This document shows, piece after piece, positions 2,081 to 64,000 of a DNA stretch of 64,000 bases; the stretch's first letter is position 1; each line of letters begins with the position of its first letter. This DNA is from Pseudooctadecabacter jejudonensis (lineage in GTDB: Bacteria > Pseudomonadota > Alphaproteobacteria > Rhodobacterales > Rhodobacteraceae): the NCBI RefSeq assembly GCF_900172275.1, contig NZ_FWFT01000004.1:186001-250000 (forward strand), written 5' to 3'. The notes beneath the pieces were generated by a model. The model saw only the letters and a program-made list of their open reading frames with translations. It was not told the origin of the DNA and did not search any database. The position numbers and the translations under genes are program-made.

Positions 2081-2204
2081 TTCTTTGGGTCATAAATACC
2101 TTTATCCAACCCTCTCCACGACACCAAACCTTCCCGCAGGCAGGCTCACAGCCGCCACATGCGCCAAAAATAACGGGCGGCGTAGCCGCACAATTTGGTC
2201 ACCG
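2081..2204 (-). repeat. Long 3'-end element, copy 1 (family A tail plus stop-codon hairpin)
   Basis: The element runs from TTCTTTGGGTCATAAATACC (2081-2100, a family A tail on the minus strand) to a GCGGC-TAC-GCCGC hairpin and GGTCACCG at 2177-2204. The second copy is at 7112-7233: 25 of the 28 bases at the hairpin end match, the tail end matches, the spacing is nearly equal (~75 bases) and the middle has diverged. On the minus strand it contains the CGG-TGA end of the MotB-like gene (stop at 2199-2201), then the hairpin and TTATTTTT, which looks like an intrinsic terminator. Confidence 0.7.
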
Positions 2205-7111: not shown

Positions 7112-7233
7112 TTCTTTGGGTCAAAAATACCTAAATCCACCGTCACCGTTAAATATTCCGCTGGCGAAAAGGGGCTCACCGTCCCGAAGCCCCCCATAAT
7201 CACGCGCGGCGCAGCCGCACAATAAGGTCACCG
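7112..7233 (-). repeat. Long 3'-end element, copy 2 (family A tail plus stop-codon hairpin)
   Basis: The second copy of the element at 2081-2204. The family A tail (minus-strand reading) is at 7112-7132, and the GCGGC-TGC-GCCGC hairpin with GGTCACCG is at 7206-7233. The minus-strand end of the element supplies the last codon and stop (CGG-TGA) of the extensin-like gene, just as copy 1 does for the MotB-like gene. The two host genes are otherwise unrelated. Confidence 0.7.
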
Positions 7234-8759: not shown

Positions 8760-9844
8760 GTCTTGGCCCCTTTTTTGAACTGGCCGATGGCATGGACGAC
8801 ACGACGGCACGACGCCTCATCTCCCACGGTAATCCGGATGCAGTTTGGCAGGCCGTAGTTGCCGACATACCGCAGCAAAATCCCCTGTGAGGTCAGATAG
8901 TCGTTGCAGGCCTTCGCCTCCTCTTCAGACGCAAACCGCGCCAAAATGAAATTGGCCTCAGACGTGTCAGACGGGATGCCGATCTCGGACAAGGCATGGG
9001 CCAGCCACTCGCGCTGCTTGGCATTCTCGATCCGGCATTTTTCCGTATGCGCCACATCGCGCATCGCAGCCTCAGCAGCTGCCAGAGCGGGCGCAGACAA
9101 ATTGAACGGCCCCCGCAAACGCATCAGCACGTCAATCACCTGTTGCGGGCCGTAAGCCCACCCGATGCGCGCGCCCCCCAACCCGTATATCTTTGAAAAC
9201 GTCCGCGTCATGATCACGTTGTCGCGCGCATCAATCAACGACGCCCCCGCATCATACCCCTCCACGAACTCTGCATAGGCCCCGTCGAGCACCAGAAGGG
9301 CGCCCTTCGGCAACCCATCGGCAAGCCGCGTCAAATCCGCCTCACCCAACATTGTCCCGGTAGGGTTGGCCGGATTGGCAATATACACAATCTTGGTCTT
9401 TTTCGTGCAGGCCGACAGCAATGCATCCACATCAACCACACGGTCCCGTTCCGCCACGATAACAGGCTCGGCCCCATTGGCATTTGCATAGATCGGATAC
9501 ATGGCAAATCCGTGCTCCGTGAACAGCACCTCATCGCCTTTGCCAGCATAGGCTTGCGCGATCATCATCAACAATTCGCCTGACCCGTTGCCGCAAATGA
9601 TCCGCGCAGGATCCAGCGACCAGACGTCCCCGATGGCGTCCCGCAAACTGCCGTGATCCGTCGAAGGATACCGATGCATGGACAAGGAGGCGCGCACCAG
9701 CGCCTCCTTGGCGTCCTCGGACGCCCCCCAAGGGTTTTCGTTCGACGACAGTTTCAGGACATTCTCCATCCCATCCACCGACGATTTCCCCCCCACATAG
9801 AGGGCAATATCCATAATCCCAGGTTGCGGCTTGATCGTGTTCAT
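8756..9844 (-). CDS. hisC: Histidinol-phosphate aminotransferase
   Basis: A 362-aa PLP enzyme of aminotransferase class I/II. Visible features are [11 protein letters not shown] near the N-terminus, [14 protein letters not shown] (phosphate-cup region), [11 protein letters not shown], and the PLP lysine in [20 protein letters not shown] at about residue 220. The length is normal for HisC. It catalyses transamination of imidazole-acetol phosphate in histidine synthesis and often also acts on aromatic keto acids, which fits its overlap with the tyrA-like gene downstream. Start ATG 9844. The 124-base gap to rpsD contains the rpsD terminator. Confidence 0.92.
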
Positions 9845-10827: not shown

Positions 10828-10902
10828 TTCTTTGGGTCAAAAATACCTGCCGCCGGCAGGCAAACGGGACGGCGGGCGGGGCGTCTTTGGCATCGCCAAA
10901 GA
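10828..10902 (-). repeat. Family A palindromic element, copy A3 (terminator-like)
   Basis: On the minus strand: a perfect TCTTTGGC/GCCAAAGA hairpin (10902-10884), then the stem CCTGCC-GGC-GGCAGG (10860-10846) followed by TATTTTTGACCCAAAGAA. It starts 26 bases after the stop of the Hint-domain gene, in terminator orientation. The stem bases differ from other copies but pairing is kept. Confidence 0.75.
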
Positions 10903-21242: not shown

Positions 21243-22123
21243 GCTGTGGCCATTTTCTTTTCAGACAGAAGCATGCGGACATACCAGATTGAGATGACCA
21301 TCATGATCGCCGTCAGGATCCAGGCGAGCGCTGAGGCATAGCCCATGTCAAACCAGCGGAAGCCCACGTTGAAGATAAAGTAAGCAAGCGTTTCGGTCGA
21401 TGTACCGGGCCCGCCGCCTGTCAGTGTAACGACCTGATCGAACATCTTGAGGGCAAAGATGGTCTTGAGCACGGCCATGACCGCAATCACGCCCTTCATC
21501 TGTGGCAGGATGATCCCGAAAACGATCCGCAGGTTGGATGCCCCGTCGATCCGCGCGGCTTCCTCGGTTTCACGGGGAATCGACGCAAGGCCGCCCAGAC
21601 ACATGAACGTCATGTAGGGCGTCCAATGCCACACATCTGTCAGCACAAGGATCCCCATCGCAAGTTGCGGGTCCGCCAACCACGGCACACCTTCGAGGGC
21701 GGGGAAGACTGCGCCCAACCCTTTGGCGAGAACGCCGAATTCGGGATTAAACATAAAGCGATAGCTGACGCCGATCAGCGCGGGGCTCATGGCGAACGGC
21801 AGAATAAGCACGATGCGCGTGAAGGTGTGCATCGGCCCCTTGCGGCGCAGCAGCAAGGCCAGCGCCATGGCCAGCACGACCGTCAGAAAAACCGATGTAA
21901 TGACAAAAATGAATGTCACCCAAAGGGAATTCAGAAATTGTTCCTCGGATGCGGCGTAGACGTAATTCTCCAAGCCGACAAAGCCTTCGGGCCTGCGAGA
22001 CTGTGTAAGGTCCCAGGCACGGAAGGATGTGAAAAATGAATAGGCCAGCGGGTAAATCGTCGTCGCCAAAACAATGACGAAAGCCGGAATTAGCAGCCAA
22101 TAGGGAAGCAACCGGTCTTGCAC
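21239..22123 (-). CDS. Carbohydrate ABC transporter permease (MalF type)
   Basis: A 294-aa inner-membrane permease with six predicted helices (LLPYWLLIPAFVIVLATTI first). The EAA loop EEAARIDGASNLRIVFGIILPQMKGV is intact. It is the MalF-type partner of the 20427-21242 permease. It lies 93 bases downstream of the substrate-binding protein gene, across a strong hairpin (22167-22202) that probably lowers its expression compared with the binding protein. Confidence 0.92.
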   Translation of the reverse strand: MQDRLLPYWLLIPAFVIVLATTIYPLAYSFFTSFRAWDLTQSRRPEGFVGLENYVYAASEEQFLNSLWVTFIFVITSVFLTVVLAMALALLLRRKGPMHTFTRIVLILPFAMSPALIGVSYRFMFNPEFGVLAKGLGAVFPALEGVPWLADPQLAMGILVLTDVWHWTPYMTFMCLGGLASIPRETEEAARIDGASNLRIVFGIILPQMKGVIAVMAVLKTIFALKMFDQVVTLTGGGPGTSTETLAYFIFNVGFRWFDMGYASALAWILTAIMMVISIWYVRMLLSEKKMATA

Positions 22124-30890: not shown

Positions 30891-30970
30891 GCCAAAATTC
30901 TGCGAATTTTGGCTACAGATTTTTATTCAAAAATCTGGCCCTGCGGGGCAGGTATTTTTGACCCAAAGAA
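30891..30970 (+). repeat. Family A palindromic element, copy A4, with two leading hairpins
   Basis: Three hairpins in a row: GCCAAAATTC/GAATTTTGGC (30891-30913), CAGATTTTT/AAAAATCTG (30916-30937), then CCTGC-GGG-GCAGG (30940-30952), followed by TATTTTTGACCCAAAGAA. Terminator orientation relative to the DUF1489 gene. Confidence 0.8.
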
Positions 30971-34565: not shown

Positions 34566-34578
34566 GGCGGGGCCGCCC

Positions 34579-34600
34579 CTTCATCTGACCAGAAAAACTC
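34579..34600 (-). repeat. Family B element, copy B1
   Basis: CTTCATCTGACCAGAAAAAC plus TC on the + strand, so the T-run is on the minus strand, 31 bases after the stop of the minus-strand lipoprotein gene. A GGGCGGGGCCGCCC stem flanks it at 34564-34578. Confidence 0.7.
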
Positions 34601-34630
34601 AAATTCCAAGACGCGCAGCACGCGCAAACA

Positions 34631-40197: not shown

Positions 40198-41559
40198 ATG
40201 AATGTGACGTTTCTTCTGAACGGAGAGACCACCCGGGTGGACACCCACCCGACGCAAACCCTTTTGGATTGGCTGCGCGAAGATCGCCAACTCACAGGGA
40301 CCAAAGAAGGCTGCAACGAAGGCGATTGTGGCGCGTGCAGCGTCATGGTGACGGATGCCAAAGGTGCGCGCACCCTGAATGCCTGCATTCTGTTCATGCC
40401 CCAACTGCACGGCAAAGCCGTCCGCACCGTTGAAGGCCTCGCCGCCCCTGACGGCACCCTGCATCCGGTGCAACAGGCTATGGTGGATCATCACGGCAGC
40501 CAGTGCGGGTTTTGCACCCCAGGGTTCGTGGTCTCCATGGCCACGGGCCATTTAGAAAACCGCACCGATCATGATGACGTGCTTGCAGGCAACTTGTGCC
40601 GCTGCACCGGCTACGCCCCGATCATCCGCGCCGCCCGCGCCGCCGAAGATGCACCCGTGCCCGATCACATGCGCGACACCCCCCTTCATCTGACCCAAAA
40701 AACTCAAATCCCGGCCCCTCAAACAAGCGACGACCTGGCCGACTGGTGCCTCGCCCACCCCGAAGGCACCCTGATCGCGGGGGCCACCGATGTGGGGCTT
40801 TGGGTGACCAAGGATTTCCGTGATCTGGGCGAGGTCGCGTTTCTGAACCAATGCGCCGACCTGCAACAAATCGACGATCTGGGCGAACACCTGCGCATCG
40901 GCGCGGCGGTCACGATGACAGACGTTCTGGCCGCCCTGCGCCCCCTGCATCCGTCTTATGCAGAGATGGTGCGCCGGTACGGATCGGAACAGGTCCGCAA
41001 TGCGGCCACAATCGGTGGCAACATCGCCAATGGGTCGCCCATCGGGGACAACCCGCCCGCCTTGATTGCACTCGGCGCCACGCTGCACTTGCGTCACGGC
41101 GACACGCGGCGTGACATGCCGATTGAAGACTTCTTTATCGACTACGGACAACAGGACCGACAGAGCGGTGAATTCGTCGAAGGCGTGACCATCCCCAAAT
41201 CGGCCCCCGCTTTGCGCTGCTACAAACTCAGCAAACGGTTCGATCAGGACATTTCGGCCGTCTGCGGCTGTTTCAATGTCACAGTAGAGACTGGCACCGT
41301 CACAGACGCCCGCATCGCCTTCGGCGGAATGGCCGGCACGCCCAAACGTGCAGACAAAGCACAGGCCGCCCTTATCGGACGCGCCTGGGCGTCTGAAACC
41401 ATTGAGGCCGCGGCGCAGGCCCTGAAAGAAGACTTTACCCCTCTCAGCGACATGCGCGCCTCGGCGGACTACAGGATGCAGGCCGCTCAGGGTCAGCTGC
41501 GCCGATACTTTGAAGACCTCAACGGGGCCCAGACCGATGTGTTGGAGGTGCGGACATGA
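40198..41559 (+). CDS. xdhA: Xanthine dehydrogenase small subunit
   Basis: A 453-aa flavin and iron-sulphur subunit that, with XdhB, oxidises hypoxanthine and xanthine to urate using NAD. The N-terminal plant-type [2Fe-2S] motif is [13 protein letters not shown] (residues ~38-50). The second [2Fe-2S] domain has [10 protein letters not shown] and CRCTGYAP. The FAD domain follows, with [20 protein letters not shown] and FAD contacts, and the CO dehydrogenase-type C-domain. Residues 163-170 (LHLTQKTQ) are encoded by a family B repeat within the linker between the Fe-S and FAD domains. Start ATG 40198. Stop overlaps xdhB (ATGA). Confidence 0.93.
40684..40705 (-). repeat. Family B element inside xdhA, copy B2
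   Basis: CTTCATCTGACCCAAAAAAC plus TC. It lies in frame in xdhA (residues 163-170) at the interdomain linker. The T-run strand is antisense to the gene, unlike the copies at gene ends. Confidence 0.75.
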
Positions 41560-43991
41560 GTGTTGCAAAACCCCTCCCCCACGATGCGGCCCGTCTGCAT
41601 GTCACCGGCCAGGCACGGTACGTGGACGACATTCCCCTGCCCCAGGGCACGCTGCATCTGGCCTTTGGGGTCAGCCGGATCGCGCGCGGTCAAATCAAAG
41701 CGATGACCCTCGAAGAGGTGAAGACAGCACCTGGGGTGGTGGCCGTTCTTACTGCTGATGATTTGCCCTTTGCCAACGATGTCTCGCCCTCCGTGCATGA
41801 TGAACCTCTGCTCAGCGATGGGCCCGTGCACTACATGGGTCAGCCCCTGTTTGTGGTTGCCGCCACGTCGCACCGCGCCGCGCGCATGGCCGCGCGGTTG
41901 GGCAACATCACCTATATCGAAGAGACCCCGATCCTGACCATCGAAGACGCTTTGGCCGCCGATGCGCGGTTTGAAGACGGCCCGCGGGTCTATGAAAAGG
42001 GCCGCGTTGACGCAGCCCTCACCCAGGCACCCCACCGGCTTCAGGGCCGGATTGAAATGGGCGGTCAGGAACACTTCTACCTGGAAGGTCAAGCCGCCCT
42101 CGCCCTGCCACAAGAAGGCGGCGATATGGTGGTGCAGTCGTCAACGCAGCACCCGACCGAAATCCAGCACAAGGTGGCCGAAGCCTTAGGCGTTCCCATG
42201 CACGCTGTCCGCGTTGAAATCCGCCGCATGGGCGGGGGCTTTGGCGGCAAGGAAAGCCAAGGCAACGCCTTGGCCGTGGCCTGCGCTGTGGTTGCGGCCC
42301 AATCGGGCCGCCCCTGCAAAATGCGCTACGACCGCGATGACGACATGATCATCACTGGCAAACGTCATGATTTCCGGATCGATTATGATGTGGGATACGA
42401 CGCGCAGGGGCGCATCCTCGGGATTGATTTCACCCACTACACCCGCTGCGGCTGGGCCCAAGACCTGTCGCTGCCCGTGGCGGACCGTGCCATGTTGCAC
42501 GCAGACAATGCCTACCTTCTGCCTGCCGCGCGCATCACATCCCACCGACTGCGCACCAACATGCAAAGCGCCACTGCCTTTCGCGGGTTCGGTGGACCAC
42601 AGGGCATGCTGGGGATTGAACGGGTGATGGACCACGTGGCCCATGCGCTGGGACGCGATGGGGCTGAGGTGCGGCGTATCAATTACTATGCAGCGATGAC
42701 CGAAAGTGCGGATGCCTCCGGCGGAGGTATTTTTGACCCAAAGAAACAGCCGACGCTGTCCACCGAAGACCTCGCGTCTCGTGGTGCCGTCCGAGCCTCC
42801 AGCGGGTCCGGCGGGTCTGCGCGCTTTGGCGGGGCGTATTCTGCGGTGCCAGAGGATGCGGAAAACACCACACCCTACTCCATGCCGGTCACGGATTTCA
42901 TTTTGCATGAGATGACCGATCAATTGCTGGACACCGCGGATTATGATCGCCGAAAGGCCGATCTGGCTCGTTGGAATGCGCAGAATGAAACGCTCAAGAA
43001 AGGGATCGCGTTTAGCCCCGTCAAGTTCGGGATTTCCTTTACTTTGACGCATCTTAATCAGGCGGGGGCGTTGGTGCATGTCTACCAGGACGGGTCGATC
43101 CATCTGAACCACGGCGGCACCGAGATGGGACAGGGCCTGTTTCAGAAGGTCGCGCAGGTCGCGGCCGCGCGGTTTGGGGTGAATGTCGCGGCGGTCAAGA
43201 TCACCGCGACGGACACCGGCAAGGTGCCCAACACCTCTGCCACGGCGGCCTCAAGCGGGTCGGATTTGAACGGAATGGCCGTGCAAGCCGCTTGTAGCAC
43301 CATCCGCGACAGGATCGCCGCCTGTCTGGCTGAGCTTCACGGTTGCTCGGTTGAGGAGGTTGTCTTTGACGGCGGGGACGTGCGCGTGGGCGGCGTGCAG
43401 ATGTCCTTCGCCAAGGCTGTGCAAACCGCCTATGAGAACCGCGTCAGTCTGAGTGCCACCGGGTTCTACAAGACACCCGATGTGGCGTGGGACAGGATTG
43501 CAGGCAAAGGACGCCCGTTCTTTTACTTCGCCTACGGGGCAGCGGTGTCGGAGGTGGTGATTGATACGCGCACCGGCGAAAACCGGTTGCTTCGTGTTGA
43601 CCTTTTGCATGATGCGGGCGCGTCGCTGAACCCTGCGTTGGACATCGGCCAGATCGAGGGCGGGTTTGTGCAAGGGGCCGGTTGGCTGACCACGGAAGAG
43701 CTTGTCTGGGATGACACCGGCCGGTTGCGCACCCACGCGCCCAGCACCTACAAGATCCCCGCCTGTTCGGATCGGCCCGCCGTGTTCAACGTCGCTCTTT
43801 GGAACGCCGCCAATCCGGCGCGCACGGTCTATCGGTCCAAGGCCGTTGGGGAGCCGCCGTTTATGCTGGGCATCTCGGCCCACCTTGCCTTGGCCGACGC
43901 CTGTTCGGCCTGCGGGCCCCATTTCCCCGATCTGCAAGCCCCCGCAACAGCCGAAGAGGTGCTGCGGGCCGTGGGACGGGCCCGCGGGTGA
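41556..43991 (+). CDS. xdhB: Xanthine dehydrogenase large (molybdopterin) subunit
   Basis: An 811-aa molybdenum-cofactor subunit of XDH. The N-terminal hammerhead domain begins [19 protein letters not shown]. Mo-bpp2 domains contain [61 protein letters not shown], and the catalytic Glu in [15 protein letters not shown] about 50 residues from the end. Residues 387-397 ([11 protein letters not shown]) come from a family A repeat, forming an insert before the conserved [10 protein letters not shown] loop. The gene is otherwise full length. Start ATG 41556 overlaps xdhA. Stop overlaps the GTG of xdhC. Confidence 0.93.
42715..42745 (+). repeat. Family A element inside xdhB, copy A5
   Basis: CCTCC-GGC-GGAGG followed by TATTTTTGACCCAAAGAA in the same orientation as the gene, within a reading frame that is not interrupted. 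A 32-base stretch from 42714 matches copy A6 (60911-60942) exactly. The stem and T-run resemble a terminator inside a coding region. Confidence 0.8.
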
Positions 43992-47442: not shown

Positions 47443-47573
47443 TGATCCTTCGATGTGACGGGCGTTTGGCCAACCGGCCCTGCGGGGCGAGTTTTTTGGG
47501 TCAGATGAAGACGGGGCGTTTGATCACGGCGGGCGCGTTAACCTTAATCACATGTGAACGGGAGCGGTGCTGA
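47439..47573 (+). CDS. 44-codon bridging mini-ORF between permeases (candidate)
   Basis: A 44-codon frame that starts by ATGA overlap with the first permease stop and ends by TGATG overlap with the second permease start. It runs through the family B copy B3 in frame. Peptide begins MMILRCDGRLANRP and ends LITCERERC. It may be a coupling ORF that carries ribosomes between the permease genes. A functional peptide is not claimed. Confidence 0.4.
   Translation: MMILRCDGRLANRPCGASFLGQMKTGRLITAGALTLITCERERC
47489..47510 (+). repeat. Family B element, copy B3
   Basis: GAGTTTTTTGGGTCAGATGA plus AG, 47 bases after the first permease stop, terminator orientation. A GCCC-TGCG-GGGC stem precedes it at 47477-47488. 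Confidence 0.7.
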
Positions 47574-59225: not shown

Positions 59226-60208
59226 AGCATCGCGGGCACCACCAGATCGGGTGGGCGGTGTCCGTCATCGAAGGTCTTGATGTTCAGCAACACCTTCTCC
59301 CCCATTTCGATCCGTCCCTCACGGGTGGCGGACCCCATGTGGGGCAGCAAGACGACATTCGACAGCTCCCGCAGGCGGGGGTTGATGTCCTGGCCGTGTT
59401 CATAAACGTCAAGGCCTGCTCCTGCGATCTCACCGGCCCTGAGCATGCGGGTCAGGGCGTTCTGGTCGATCACCTCCCCCCGGGCCGTGTTCACGATGAC
59501 GGCGTCCGGTTTCATCAGCTTCAGACGCCGCGCGTTCATCAGGTGGAATGTTGCGGGGGTATGCGGGCAATTGACCGAGATCACATCCATCCGCGCCACC
59601 ATCTGATCAAGGCTGTCCCACCAGGTGGCCTCCAGCGCCTCTTCGGTCTCAAGCCGCAGCCTGCGGCGGTTGTTGTAGTGGATTTGCATACCGAAGGCGC
59701 GCGCACGGCGGGCCACGGCCTGGCCGATGCGCCCCATGCCCAGGATGCCCAGTCGGCGCCCTGCGATGCGCCCCCCCATCATGGCCGTGGGCGCCCAACC
59801 GTCCCAATCGCCGCTTTGCATCTGCGCCAGACCTTCGGGGATGCGGCGGGTCACGGCAAGGATGAGGGCCATGGTCATATCGGCAGTGTCTTCTGTCACG
59901 ACACCGGGGGTGTTGGACACAAGGATGCCGCGCTGGCGGGCTGTCTGGACGTCGATGTGATCCACGCCTGCACCGTAATTCGCGATCAGTTTGAGCCGCG
60001 CGCCGGCCTGGCCCAACACCGCGGCTGAGATCGTATCGGTCACGGTGGGCACCAGAACATCGCAGGTTTGCATGCTCTCGATCAGGGCGGCCTCGGACAG
60101 GGGCGTGTCGTCGTCGCGCAGGGTCACATCGAACAGTTCACGCAGACGGATTTCCACGGGATCGGGCAACCGTCGCGTCACGGTAACACTTAGACGTTTG
60201 CTGCTCAT
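59222..60208 (-). CDS. D-2-hydroxyacid dehydrogenase (glyoxylate/hydroxypyruvate reductase type)
   Basis: A 328-aa NAD(P)-dependent dehydrogenase. The Rossmann motif is RLGILGMGRIGQAVARRARAF; the catalytic Arg is in VNTARGEVID and the Glu/His pair is in NVVLLPHMGSATREGRIEMGEKVLLNI. The N-terminal lobe has KLIANYGAGVDHIDVQTARQRGILVSNTPGV. The glyoxylate reductase (GhrB-like) branch is most likely. Start ATG 60208; an in-frame extension upstream is not supported. Confidence 0.9.
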   Translation of the reverse strand: MSSKRLSVTVTRRLPDPVEIRLRELFDVTLRDDDTPLSEAALIESMQTCDVLVPTVTDTISAAVLGQAGARLKLIANYGAGVDHIDVQTARQRGILVSNTPGVVTEDTADMTMALILAVTRRIPEGLAQMQSGDWDGWAPTAMMGGRIAGRRLGILGMGRIGQAVARRARAFGMQIHYNNRRRLRLETEEALEATWWDSLDQMVARMDVISVNCPHTPATFHLMNARRLKLMKPDAVIVNTARGEVIDQNALTRMLRAGEIAGAGLDVYEHGQDINPRLRELSNVVLLPHMGSATREGRIEMGEKVLLNIKTFDDGHRPPDLVVPAML

Positions 60209-60326
60209 GGTCAGGGCCCCCTCGCTTGCCCCGATGGGGGCTGTCATGGCAGGTTGCCTGCAAAGGTCCGGCGGCACAAGAACCGCGCTTTCGAAAATCG
60301 AAACAGGACTGGTAGAGGGCAGTATT

Positions 60327-60869
60327 ATGATGACAGGACGCGTGGCTTCCTTTCTGTTGGCTTTGGTATTGGCGTCTGGCGCTGTGGCGCAAGAGACGAC
60401 CGAAACGGCTGTCGTGACACCGATCACGGCTGTGCAAGGCGACCGTGGGCCTGTCACCAATTTGCCCATGCCCCGCTATGTGTCACTGAAGGCGAATGAG
60501 GCCAACGTGCGCCGCGGCCCGTCGCTGTCCCATCGGATCGACTGGGTGTTTCAACGCCGCGACATGCCCCTGCGGGTGGTGGGTGAATACGGCCACTGGC
60601 GCCGCGTGGTCGACCGCGAAGGCATGGGCGGTTGGGTGCATTATTCCCTGTTGTCCGGCAACCGTACTGTGATCATCGACCACGACATGTTGACCATCCG
60701 CCAACGCCCCGATGACACCGCGATGGAAGTGGCGCATCTGGAACTGGGTGTCATCGCCGATTTAGGCGAATGCGATGTGGACTGGTGCCGTTTGCGTGCT
60801 GGGGGGTATCGGGGATGGGCGGAAAAAACCGCGTTGTTTGGCGTGGCCCCCGGTGAGCTTCGCGACTGA
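60327..60869 (+). CDS. Exported SH3b-domain protein
   Basis: A 180-aa protein with a Sec signal (VASFLLALVLASGAVA then QE). Two bacterial SH3 domains: KANEANVRRGPSLSHRIDWVFQRRDMPLRVVGEYGHWRRV and HDMLTIRQRPDDTAMEVAHLE, with Cys-x-x-x-x-x-Cys in the second. Typical of cell-wall or periplasmic targeting proteins. Start ATG 60327. A family A element (60889-60942) follows in terminator orientation. Confidence 0.85.
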   Translation: MMTGRVASFLLALVLASGAVAQETTETAVVTPITAVQGDRGPVTNLPMPRYVSLKANEANVRRGPSLSHRIDWVFQRRDMPLRVVGEYGHWRRVVDREGMGGWVHYSLLSGNRTVIIDHDMLTIRQRPDDTAMEVAHLELGVIADLGECDVDWCRLRAGGYRGWAEKTALFGVAPGELRD

Positions 60870-60888: not shown

Positions 60889-60942
60889 GCTAAAATTATA
60901 TAATTTTAGCGCCTCCGGCGGAGGTATTTTTGACCCAAAGAA
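60889..60942 (+). repeat. Family A palindromic element, copy A6
   Basis: A perfect palindrome GCTAAAATTAT/ATAATTTTAGC (60889-60910), then CCTCC-GGC-GGAGG (60912-60924) and TATTTTTGACCCAAAGAA. It follows the SH3 gene by about 20 bases. A 32-base stretch is identical to copy A5 inside xdhB. Confidence 0.8.
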
Positions 60943-63132: not shown

Positions 63133-63182
63133 GGGCGATCTCCTTTGCACTTCAACCTATGCACTTTGGCGCGCCGTTCCAC

Positions 63183-63204
63183 CTTCATCTGACCAGAAAA
63201 ACTC
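63183..63204 (-). repeat. Family B element, copy B5
   Basis: CTTCATCTGACCAGAAAAAC plus TC on the + strand, ten bases beyond the stop of the minus-strand permease gene, in terminator orientation for that gene. Confidence 0.75.
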
Positions 63205-63213
63205 ACATCCGCG

Positions 63214-64000
63214 CTACCCGCCGGGCGTCCGGTCGCGCAGGTGCCGTTCCAGCCGCCGCAGAACAAGGCTGAGGCCAATGGTCATGGTCAGATAAATAAG
63301 CGCCACGATGTTATAGGTTTCAAAATACCGAAAATTGCCCGCCGCCGTGACCTTACCGGCCTGCGTGACATCCAACACCCCCAACACCGACACCAGAGAG
63401 CTGTCTTTGACCATCGCGACGAAATCATTGCCCAAGGGCGGCAGGATCCGTCGGAACGCCTGCGGAAAGGTGATGTGGCGGAATCGGTGCCACGCCGACA
63501 GGCCCAGCGCCTCGGCCGCCTCAATCTGGCCGCGTTCAATGGATTGGAGCCCAGCGCGAAACACCTCAGAGATAAAGGCGGAATAGCCGATGGTAAGCGC
63601 AATGGTCGCCCGCCACAGCATGGAAAAATCGCGGTTCCTGATCGGGTCAAACCCCACCAGGCCCGTGGCCCAATTCCACAGCGCCACCAAGGCAGGGGCC
63701 AGCACGAAGGCAACATACAGCAGCAGCACGATGATCGGCACACCGCGCACGACCTCAACATAAAGCCGCGCCACCTGCCGCACGACAATCCAGCGCGACA
63801 TGGACATCATTGCCAGGCCAAGGCCCAGCGCGTTGGCCAGCGCGAAGCCCACAAGGGTGACAAAGACGGTGATGCGGATGCCTTTCGACAGTGTGCCAAG
63901 GACCTGAGTATACAGATCATTCGACAGCACCTGCCAAAAGAAATAGCCGCCCACCGCCAAAACGATGAGCAGCCAATAGGGAAAATCCCTGTCTTGTTTG
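63214..64000 (-). CDS. Polar amino-acid ABC transporter permease (5' end outside window)
   Basis: At least 261 residues are present and the frame continues past the right edge. Type-I permease with EAAEALGLSAWHRFRHITFPQAFRRILPPLG (EAA loop), and membrane helices ending in YLTMTIGLSLVLRRLERHL. It resembles HisM/GlnP permeases for polar amino acids. The partner permease, binding protein and ATPase must lie beyond the window. Followed by family B element B5. Confidence 0.92.
   Translation of the reverse strand, partial: KQDRDFPYWLLIVLAVGGYFFWQVLSNDLYTQVLGTLSKGIRITVFVTLVGFALANALGLGLAMMSMSRWIVVRQVARLYVEVVRGVPIIVLLLYVAFVLAPALVALWNWATGLVGFDPIRNRDFSMLWRATIALTIGYSAFISEVFRAGLQSIERGQIEAAEALGLSAWHRFRHITFPQAFRRILPPLGNDFVAMVKDSSLVSVLGVLDVTQAGKVTAAGNFRYFETYNIVALIYLTMTIGLSLVLRRLERHLRDRTPGG

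Follow-up and report, generated by a model that had tools for sequence, protein, structure and literature searches.

A dispersed repeat is read in frame within the hinge of XdhB

The window analysed here, a stretch of 64,000 nucleotides from Pseudooctadecabacter jejudonensis (contig NZ_FWFT01000004.1, positions 186,001 to 250,000), contains xdhA and xdhB, a single operon encoding subunits of xanthine dehydrogenase, and within xdhB lies a copy of a short dispersed repeat that we term the type I element (Table 1). The window is part of the genome searched (3.41 Mb, 15 contigs; labelled G000), and in all counts G-numbers denote genomes and L-numbers denote loci. Pfam places MoCoBD_1 at aa 145-377 and MoCoBD_2 at aa 457-741 of XdhB, and the element is predicted to sit inside a disordered hinge between these two molybdenum-cofactor domains. 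The AlphaFold2 model used for this prediction drew on 28 aligned sequences and is of middling quality (mean predicted local distance difference test score, pLDDT, of 72.1, with 187 of 811 residues below 50). The nearest XdhB sequence is from a record labelled Pseudooctadecabacter (86%), followed by Octadecabacter records and others; likeness to the window protein was 86% in G010 and 84% in G018.

A first-pass annotation, made from the sequence alone, had described this stretch as identical to another in the window and as translated before a conserved 10-residue loop, and both descriptions held. Comparison of the repeats within the window revealed that 42714-42745 and 60911-60942 agree at 32/32 nt, and no match to the 32-nt element was found in 100 shuffles with up to three mismatches permitted. 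The frame of the gene matched by TIGR02965 reads 13 residues across the element, upstream of the conserved 10-residue stretch.

Type I copies across the genome share a core rather than a stem

To describe the family, the 20-mer GGTATTTTTGACCCAAAGAA was searched in the genome at up to two mismatches, which gave 43 + 50 = 93 copies, compared to none in a backwards control. Among 92 copies the core AGGTATTTnnGACCCAAAGAA was nearly invariant and the bases 5' of it were variable, a spread that is capped because the copies were picked by likeness to the 20-mer. The A preceding the search pattern, and lying outside it, was present in 92/92. The conserved unit of type I is the 21-nt core, not the stem: an upstream fold below -6 kcal/mol was found in 70/92 copies and was lacking in 22/92. 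Most copies have a stem ahead of TATTT, which is followed by two free bases and by an 11-nt tag differing from species to species. With neighbours taken from a simple in-house gene caller, the 88 copies with both neighbours called lay in 39 convergent, 35 tandem and 14 divergent gaps; the upstream gene was on the copy's own strand in 65/88, and the 35 tandem-gap copies ran with the gene direction in 26 cases and against it in 9. Several copies (L210, L219, L001 and L208) carry a longer 3' extension such as TTCGAGCCGTCTCGGAGCGGCCCC past the core, and from the extensions common to several copies the repeats look modular.

The first-pass annotation had also noted a terminator-like stem with a T-run in the sense direction. 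The stem and the TTTTT are indeed present in the window xdhB copy, but in the short fold the pairing of the stem extends into the T-run, and the site is absent from the output of the terminator scan. The local fold of -12.2 kcal/mol is not clearly better than that of shuffled sequences (z of -1.14, -0.93 and -1.43). Terminator action inside xdhB is therefore weakly supported. The family as a whole resembles intrinsic terminators in its stem followed by TATTTTT and its placement after genes, and differs from them in that conservation runs 11 nt beyond the T-run and that, as noted above, some copies have no such fold.

The element recurs in the hinge of XdhB relatives

We assembled 144 XdhB rows (64 loci from G000 and relatives plus 80 named loci), of which 132, the window included, were scanned after near-duplicates had been dropped. 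The scoring matrix was built from genomic copies of 12 genomes with the xdhB copies left out, at a cut-off of 10 bits. A sense match in the hinge, which makes up ~7% of the gene, was found in 54/132 genes, compared to one gene with a sense match and one with an antisense match outside the hinge. No antisense match was found in the hinge in any of the 132 at this cut-off. One codon phase was common to 52 of the 54 hinge matches, the two off-phase genes being L040 and L044. The row for G018 (L054), truncated by the end of its contig, was scored absent despite the element being present.

The hinge is hypervariable, measuring ~7 to ~70 residues between fixed anchors. Many relatives have no insert (for example L071/L150, L134, L147 and L100), and the anchors flanking the hinge are kept in the genes without the element. 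When presence and absence were placed on an XdhB tree, at least 31 changes were required (124 rows scored, cut-off 8 bits); this tree of 131 rows, 7 of them unscored, was a quick one built without the hinge, with 43 of 128 inner branches open. At 4 bits the element was missing in 68 of the 124 scored genes.

The base after TATTT was C in 35/43 xdhB copies, compared to 28/169 other genomic copies (G000 set aside). A C at this position gives Ile-Ser codons and interrupts the T-run. Because this base is enriched in the xdhB copies, selection seems to act on the hinge peptide, and terminator action in xdhB seems unpreserved, with the T-run mostly interrupted.

The xanthine dehydrogenase of Rhodobacter capsulatus (PDB 1JRO chain B), aligned to the window protein as query, matches on either side of the hinge and not across it. 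Aligned via a closer relative, its hinge reads GGLSAPPSPPEPIATKKTQ, which resembles the translated long-stem element GGASAPPSPPEGISAKKTQ of the relative L093. Judged from this protein resemblance, R. capsulatus likely carries an element as well.

In seven genes (L114, L121, L124, L125, L127, L129 and L143) the hinge contains another in-frame palindrome, in the forms ATGGGTCTTGACCCAT, GTGGATCTTGATCCAC, ATGGATCTTGATCCAT and GTGGATC[TA][TA]GATCCAC, in which a change in one arm between species is matched by a change in the other. These genes belong to Yoonia or its neighbours on the tree, and in two of them the palindrome adjoins a family element.

The xdhB copy usually follows the dialect of its own genome

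Whole-genome searches revealed versions of the core particular to individual relatives. We compared the xdhB copy of each of 12 genomes with the genomic copies of all 12, taken from whatever setting, intergenic or not; off-pattern matches, the xdhB copies themselves and genomes G067, G029, G065 and G025 were left out. For several genomes part of the copies entered (34/66 in G037, 20/62 in G021, 13/49 in G054, 12/26 in G017, 22/90 matches in G028 and 19/112 in G069). The xdhB copy best matched its own genome's copies, with no ties, in 9/12 genomes. The summed own-genome score was 251, compared to a permuted mean of 197 and maximum of 236 (100,000 permutations, P ~1e-5; the permutations treat genomes as independent, though G014 and G017 are near-identical). 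The first-pass annotation had named, as the outcome that would speak against it, residues conserved in XdhB proteins lacking the repeat; what we observe is the hypervariable hinge described above together with this own-genome match.

The match is also visible in the tags of three sister species. The xdhB tag is GACCCAAAGAA in G000, where 88/91 own copies carry it, GAACCAGAGAA in G010 (10/23) and GAGCCAAAGAA in G018 (3/10), and none of the three occurs among the copies of the five other genomes in the comparison. A second copy in G018 matches the xdhB copy of that genome at 34/34 nt.

A second repeat family lies in xdhA and in four or more further genes

A scan of 3.23 Mb returned 103 matches of at least 20 bits, the xdhB and xdhA copies included, and none in a reversed control, and flagged xdhA as a further host. 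The element in xdhA belongs to a second family, type III, which has 105 copies in G000 at up to three mismatches (control, 0). It lies between the Pfam domains Fer2_2 (aa 77-146) and FAD_binding_5 (aa 171-334). Among 89 xdhA genes, scored at 12 bits or more, the linker contained an antisense match in 18 and a sense match in one, compared to one sense and one antisense match outside the linker. All three codon phases are represented among the linker matches.

A census of 190 copies in G000 (93 type I and 97 of the 105 type III) placed at least six within genes: type I in xdhB, and type III in xdhA, dnaE2, putA, bchB and an AlkZ-like gene. No frame spanned 54 of the 190 copies, and 52 had a frame above a loose score. 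Twelve candidate genes besides xdhA and xdhB were put through Pfam, so that 6/190 is a minimum. The plus-strand frame at L316 matched the error-prone dnaE2 and that at L327 matched putA, in which the element is located between the two enzyme domains of PutA. In xdhA, putA and dnaE2 the type III elements are antisense. The idea of xdhB as the sole intragenic host was overturned by the census and by the Pfam matches of the type III frames. The earlier observation is thus confirmed and its scale is larger than reported, with xdhA and at least four other genes carrying the second family.

Two of these hosts, both on contig C6 of G000, show other arrangements. In bchB (L349) a long-stem type III element is translated in the sense direction between the nitrogenase-like and PCP_red domains, and in the AlkZ-like glycosylase gene (L335) the element is antisense and lies within the AlkZ-like domain, not in a linker. 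Pfam gave no match for the frames at L318, L216, L202 and L344, and for that at L320 a match below its cut-off. The elements at L205, L201, L338 and L196 may lie upstream of the real gene start. Other candidate coding-like matches outside xdhA and xdhB are L148, L174, L262, L287, L292, L293 and L300, the last of which looks like chance. At L130 the XdhA linker reads GKVGLDPPTPEASVGQDPPY, and a palindrome of the GTGGGTCTTGACCCAC type occurs at three places in the locus, of which two lie near position 9100 at a distance of ~30 nt.

Copies at shared coding sites mostly carry the tag of their genome

Tag lists for type III were drawn up for G000 and for further genomes; those of the further genomes consist solely of copies whose stem is CTCCGGCGG, and they are short, with 2 to 9 type III copies each. 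In genomes with a tag list, 9/10 recognisable copies at xdhA, putA and dnaE2 carry their own genome's tag. The tag GGTCAGATGAA is present in all three genes of G000 and in 79/92 of its own copies, with 0/22 in five other lists. In G010 the same three genes carry GGCCAGATGAA, found in 7/9 own copies and in 6/92 of G000, and xdhA and putA of G016 carry GCCTAGATGAA (3/5 own copies). The xdhA element of G018 carries GGTCAGAAGAA, which is also the tag of the four type III copies listed for that genome. In dnaE2 the extra residues lie at one place in G000, G010 and G018, and this site is empty in G006 and G016.

Comparison with known palindromic repeats

The first-pass annotation likened the xdhB element to the in-frame palindromic elements of Rickettsia. 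Rickettsia palindromic elements (RPEs) are described as small palindromic repeats found between genes and in frame in unrelated functional proteins (PMC10969869, PMC3733652), with nearly half of them intragenic (PMC10969869). The likeness in behaviour stands, with in-frame insertion into functional genes seen here in xdhB, xdhA, putA, dnaE2, bchB and the AlkZ-like gene. Membership does not: the unit here measures ~21-60 nt (shared part ~21-35 nt) compared to ~150 bp, a distinction drawn by length only. Within one bacterial family, coding copies here are also found repeatedly at a single linker, usually in the genome's dialect, and at least 6/190 of the copies examined are intragenic, in contrast to nearly half of RPEs (PMC10969869).

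Repetitive extragenic palindromic elements (REPs) with GTAG or CGTC tags are mostly intergenic in tandem or convergent gaps, with some in open reading frames (ORFs) including error-prone dnaE2 (PMC3733652, section 15). The repeats described here are likewise mostly in tandem or convergent gaps, and dnaE2 is a host gene here too. Both tetranucleotides, GTAG and CGTC, are absent from the consensus of 92 type I copies and from that of 35 type III copies. A search of G000 for a RAYT-type transposase (PF01797, Y1_Tnp) gave no match at E 0.001, compared to matches in 5/14 control genomes. The repeats behave like RPE and REP insertions and, by sequence, lie outside the GTAG/CGTC REPs. Among the literature matches listed, apparently no paper deals with these repeats in Rhodobacteraceae, which is not proof of absence.

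How repeat and gene may have come to agree

These results give good support to the insertion of a dispersed repeat into flexible linkers. What the comparisons show directly is the identity of the repeat, where it sits in the hinge, its orientation and frame, and the dialect match, from which the way the copies spread and the age and number of the insertions are inferred. We consider insertion in frame followed by overwriting or replacement with the genome's repeat family to be the best account, and probably the correct one. A dispersed repeat, mostly found after genes, would insert in frame into the flexible XdhB hinge, where extra residues would do little harm, a near-neutrality for the enzyme that we infer. 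Dispersed copies, coding ones included, would then be overwritten or replaced from within the genome, and selection on the protein would prune them to what the linker tolerates. The copies in xdhB, xdhA, putA and dnaE2 mostly bear the tag of the genome they are in, and sites that are shared yet tagged by species are best accounted for by overwriting or replacement in place. A broader proposal, which we advance tentatively and with slightly more doubt than confidence, is that genome-wide concerted evolution of short Rhodobacteraceae repeats rewrites codons of conserved enzymes. Coding and non-coding copies would be overwritten alike, by a copying process such as gene conversion over 20-35 nt of homology or the annealing of single-stranded repeat DNA at replication forks, so that parts of XdhB, XdhA, PutA and DnaE2 would follow the repeat family and not the gene.

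Several observations weigh against overwriting or replacement. A length of 20-35 nt is short for ordinary recombination. In the dialect test, 3/12 genomes (G016, G015 and G017) rank their own copies second, and the near-identical G014 and G017 were both included. In small samples, several of them with few copies, the own 100 kb sample holds the best match in 7/17 genomes, one of them tied, and the own flanks are best for 4/33 loci and tied for three more. In G016 the type III copy in xdhB bears a tag found at 0/5 of that genome's listed copies, G018 dnaE2 carries GCCAAGATGAA, at 0/4 of G018's listed copies, putA of G018 and G014 has none of the six tags and looks decayed, and the G000 AlkZ-like copy has a minority tag (6/92). 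The G018 xdhA element is longer, with a stem other than that of G000 and G010, and points to replacement or a new insertion more than to a patch.

A fresh insertion in each species could also yield the dialect matches at xdhB. Tolerant or preferred linkers would be hit again by each lineage's active repeat, followed by decay and deletion, and old copies would need no homogenisation. The 31 or more changes on the XdhB tree, the different subfamilies at the xdhB site within one genus, the three codon phases in xdhA, the longer G018 xdhA element and the decayed-looking copies at L122, L035 and L144 (judged by eye) are all consistent with this. However, 54/54 xdhB hinge matches are in sense and 52 share one phase, which would fit one or a few ancestral insertions better. 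In addition, xdhA and putA (in G000, G010 and G016) and dnaE2 (in G000 and G010) have the element at matching codons with tags that differ by species. Repeated insertion is possible at xdhB and at G018 xdhA; as a general explanation we regard it as unlikely, if the most serious competitor. A functional site for binding, processing or attenuation, whose factor drifts in specificity between species and whose coding and intergenic copies are kept matched by selection, would fit the strict core with its two free positions (with the spread capped by the two-mismatch picking), the invariant preceding A, and the placement after genes with the upstream gene on the same strand in 65/88. Such a role is improbable given that 68/124 scored XdhB genes do not have the element at 4 bits, that in xdhB the T-run is usually interrupted and the fold weak, and that the elements are antisense in xdhA, putA and dnaE2. 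To the eye, the many G, P, A and K residues of the linker could give it the look of a GC-rich stem, but an ancestral linker resembling the repeat by chance is scarcely credible beside the 32-nt identity with no match in 100 shuffles, the kept anchors in genes without the element, and the localisation, orientation and dialect statistics. Chance or composition as the source of the xdhB repeat is ruled out by the shuffles, the dialect permutations and the hinge localisation.

The XdhB hinge is a recurrent, family-wide place where non-coding repeats turn into protein, in an enzyme with solved structures. Repeat insertion would account for the high variability of this hinge, probably in the R. capsulatus enzyme as well, and the species tags at shared coding sites offer natural markers for how small bacterial repeats stay uniform without a known transposase.

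Feature coordinates and further copies

Table 1. Host genes and repeat copies in the window
Feature	Positions	Strand	Details
xdhA, xanthine dehydrogenase small subunit, second host gene	40198..41559	+	TIGR02963, 588.9 bits
Type III element in the Fe-S/FAD domain linker of xdhA, antisense to the gene	40681..40712	-	12 residues
xdhB, xanthine dehydrogenase molybdopterin-binding subunit, host gene	41556..43991	+	TIGR02965, 1187.9 bits (cut-off 849.5)
XdhB hinge, aa 384-434, predicted disordered	42705..42857	+	AlphaFold2 pLDDT < 50
Type I element in xdhB	42714..42745	+	32-nt repeat; in frame, sense; 11 residues encoded
Type I core AGGTATTTnnGACCCAAAGAA	42725..42745	+	From comparison of 92 G000 copies
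Type I core with one change	2081..2098	-	
Type I core	7112..7129	-	
Type I core	10828..10845	-	
Type I copy with a different stem	30939..30970	+	
Type I copy identical to the xdhB element, outside xdhB	60911..60942	+	After ORF 59991-60869
Type III copy	34576..34607	-	
Type III copy	47488..47518	+	
Type III copy	63180..63211	-	

The ORF at 59991-60869 had no PADLOC or NCBIfam match, and Rfam gave no match in the window at the gathering score. Further high-scoring matches, without placement, occur at L375 and other loci. A further repeated 32-mer in the window (ATTAGCAGCCAATAGGGAAG..) is found at 22089-22120 and 63965-63996, the two being 81% alike. In pairs such as that at G037:C64:1787-1841, the two elements face each other and overlap around CCAATTCGAATTGG, so that they form one long palindrome with a TATTT core at either end.
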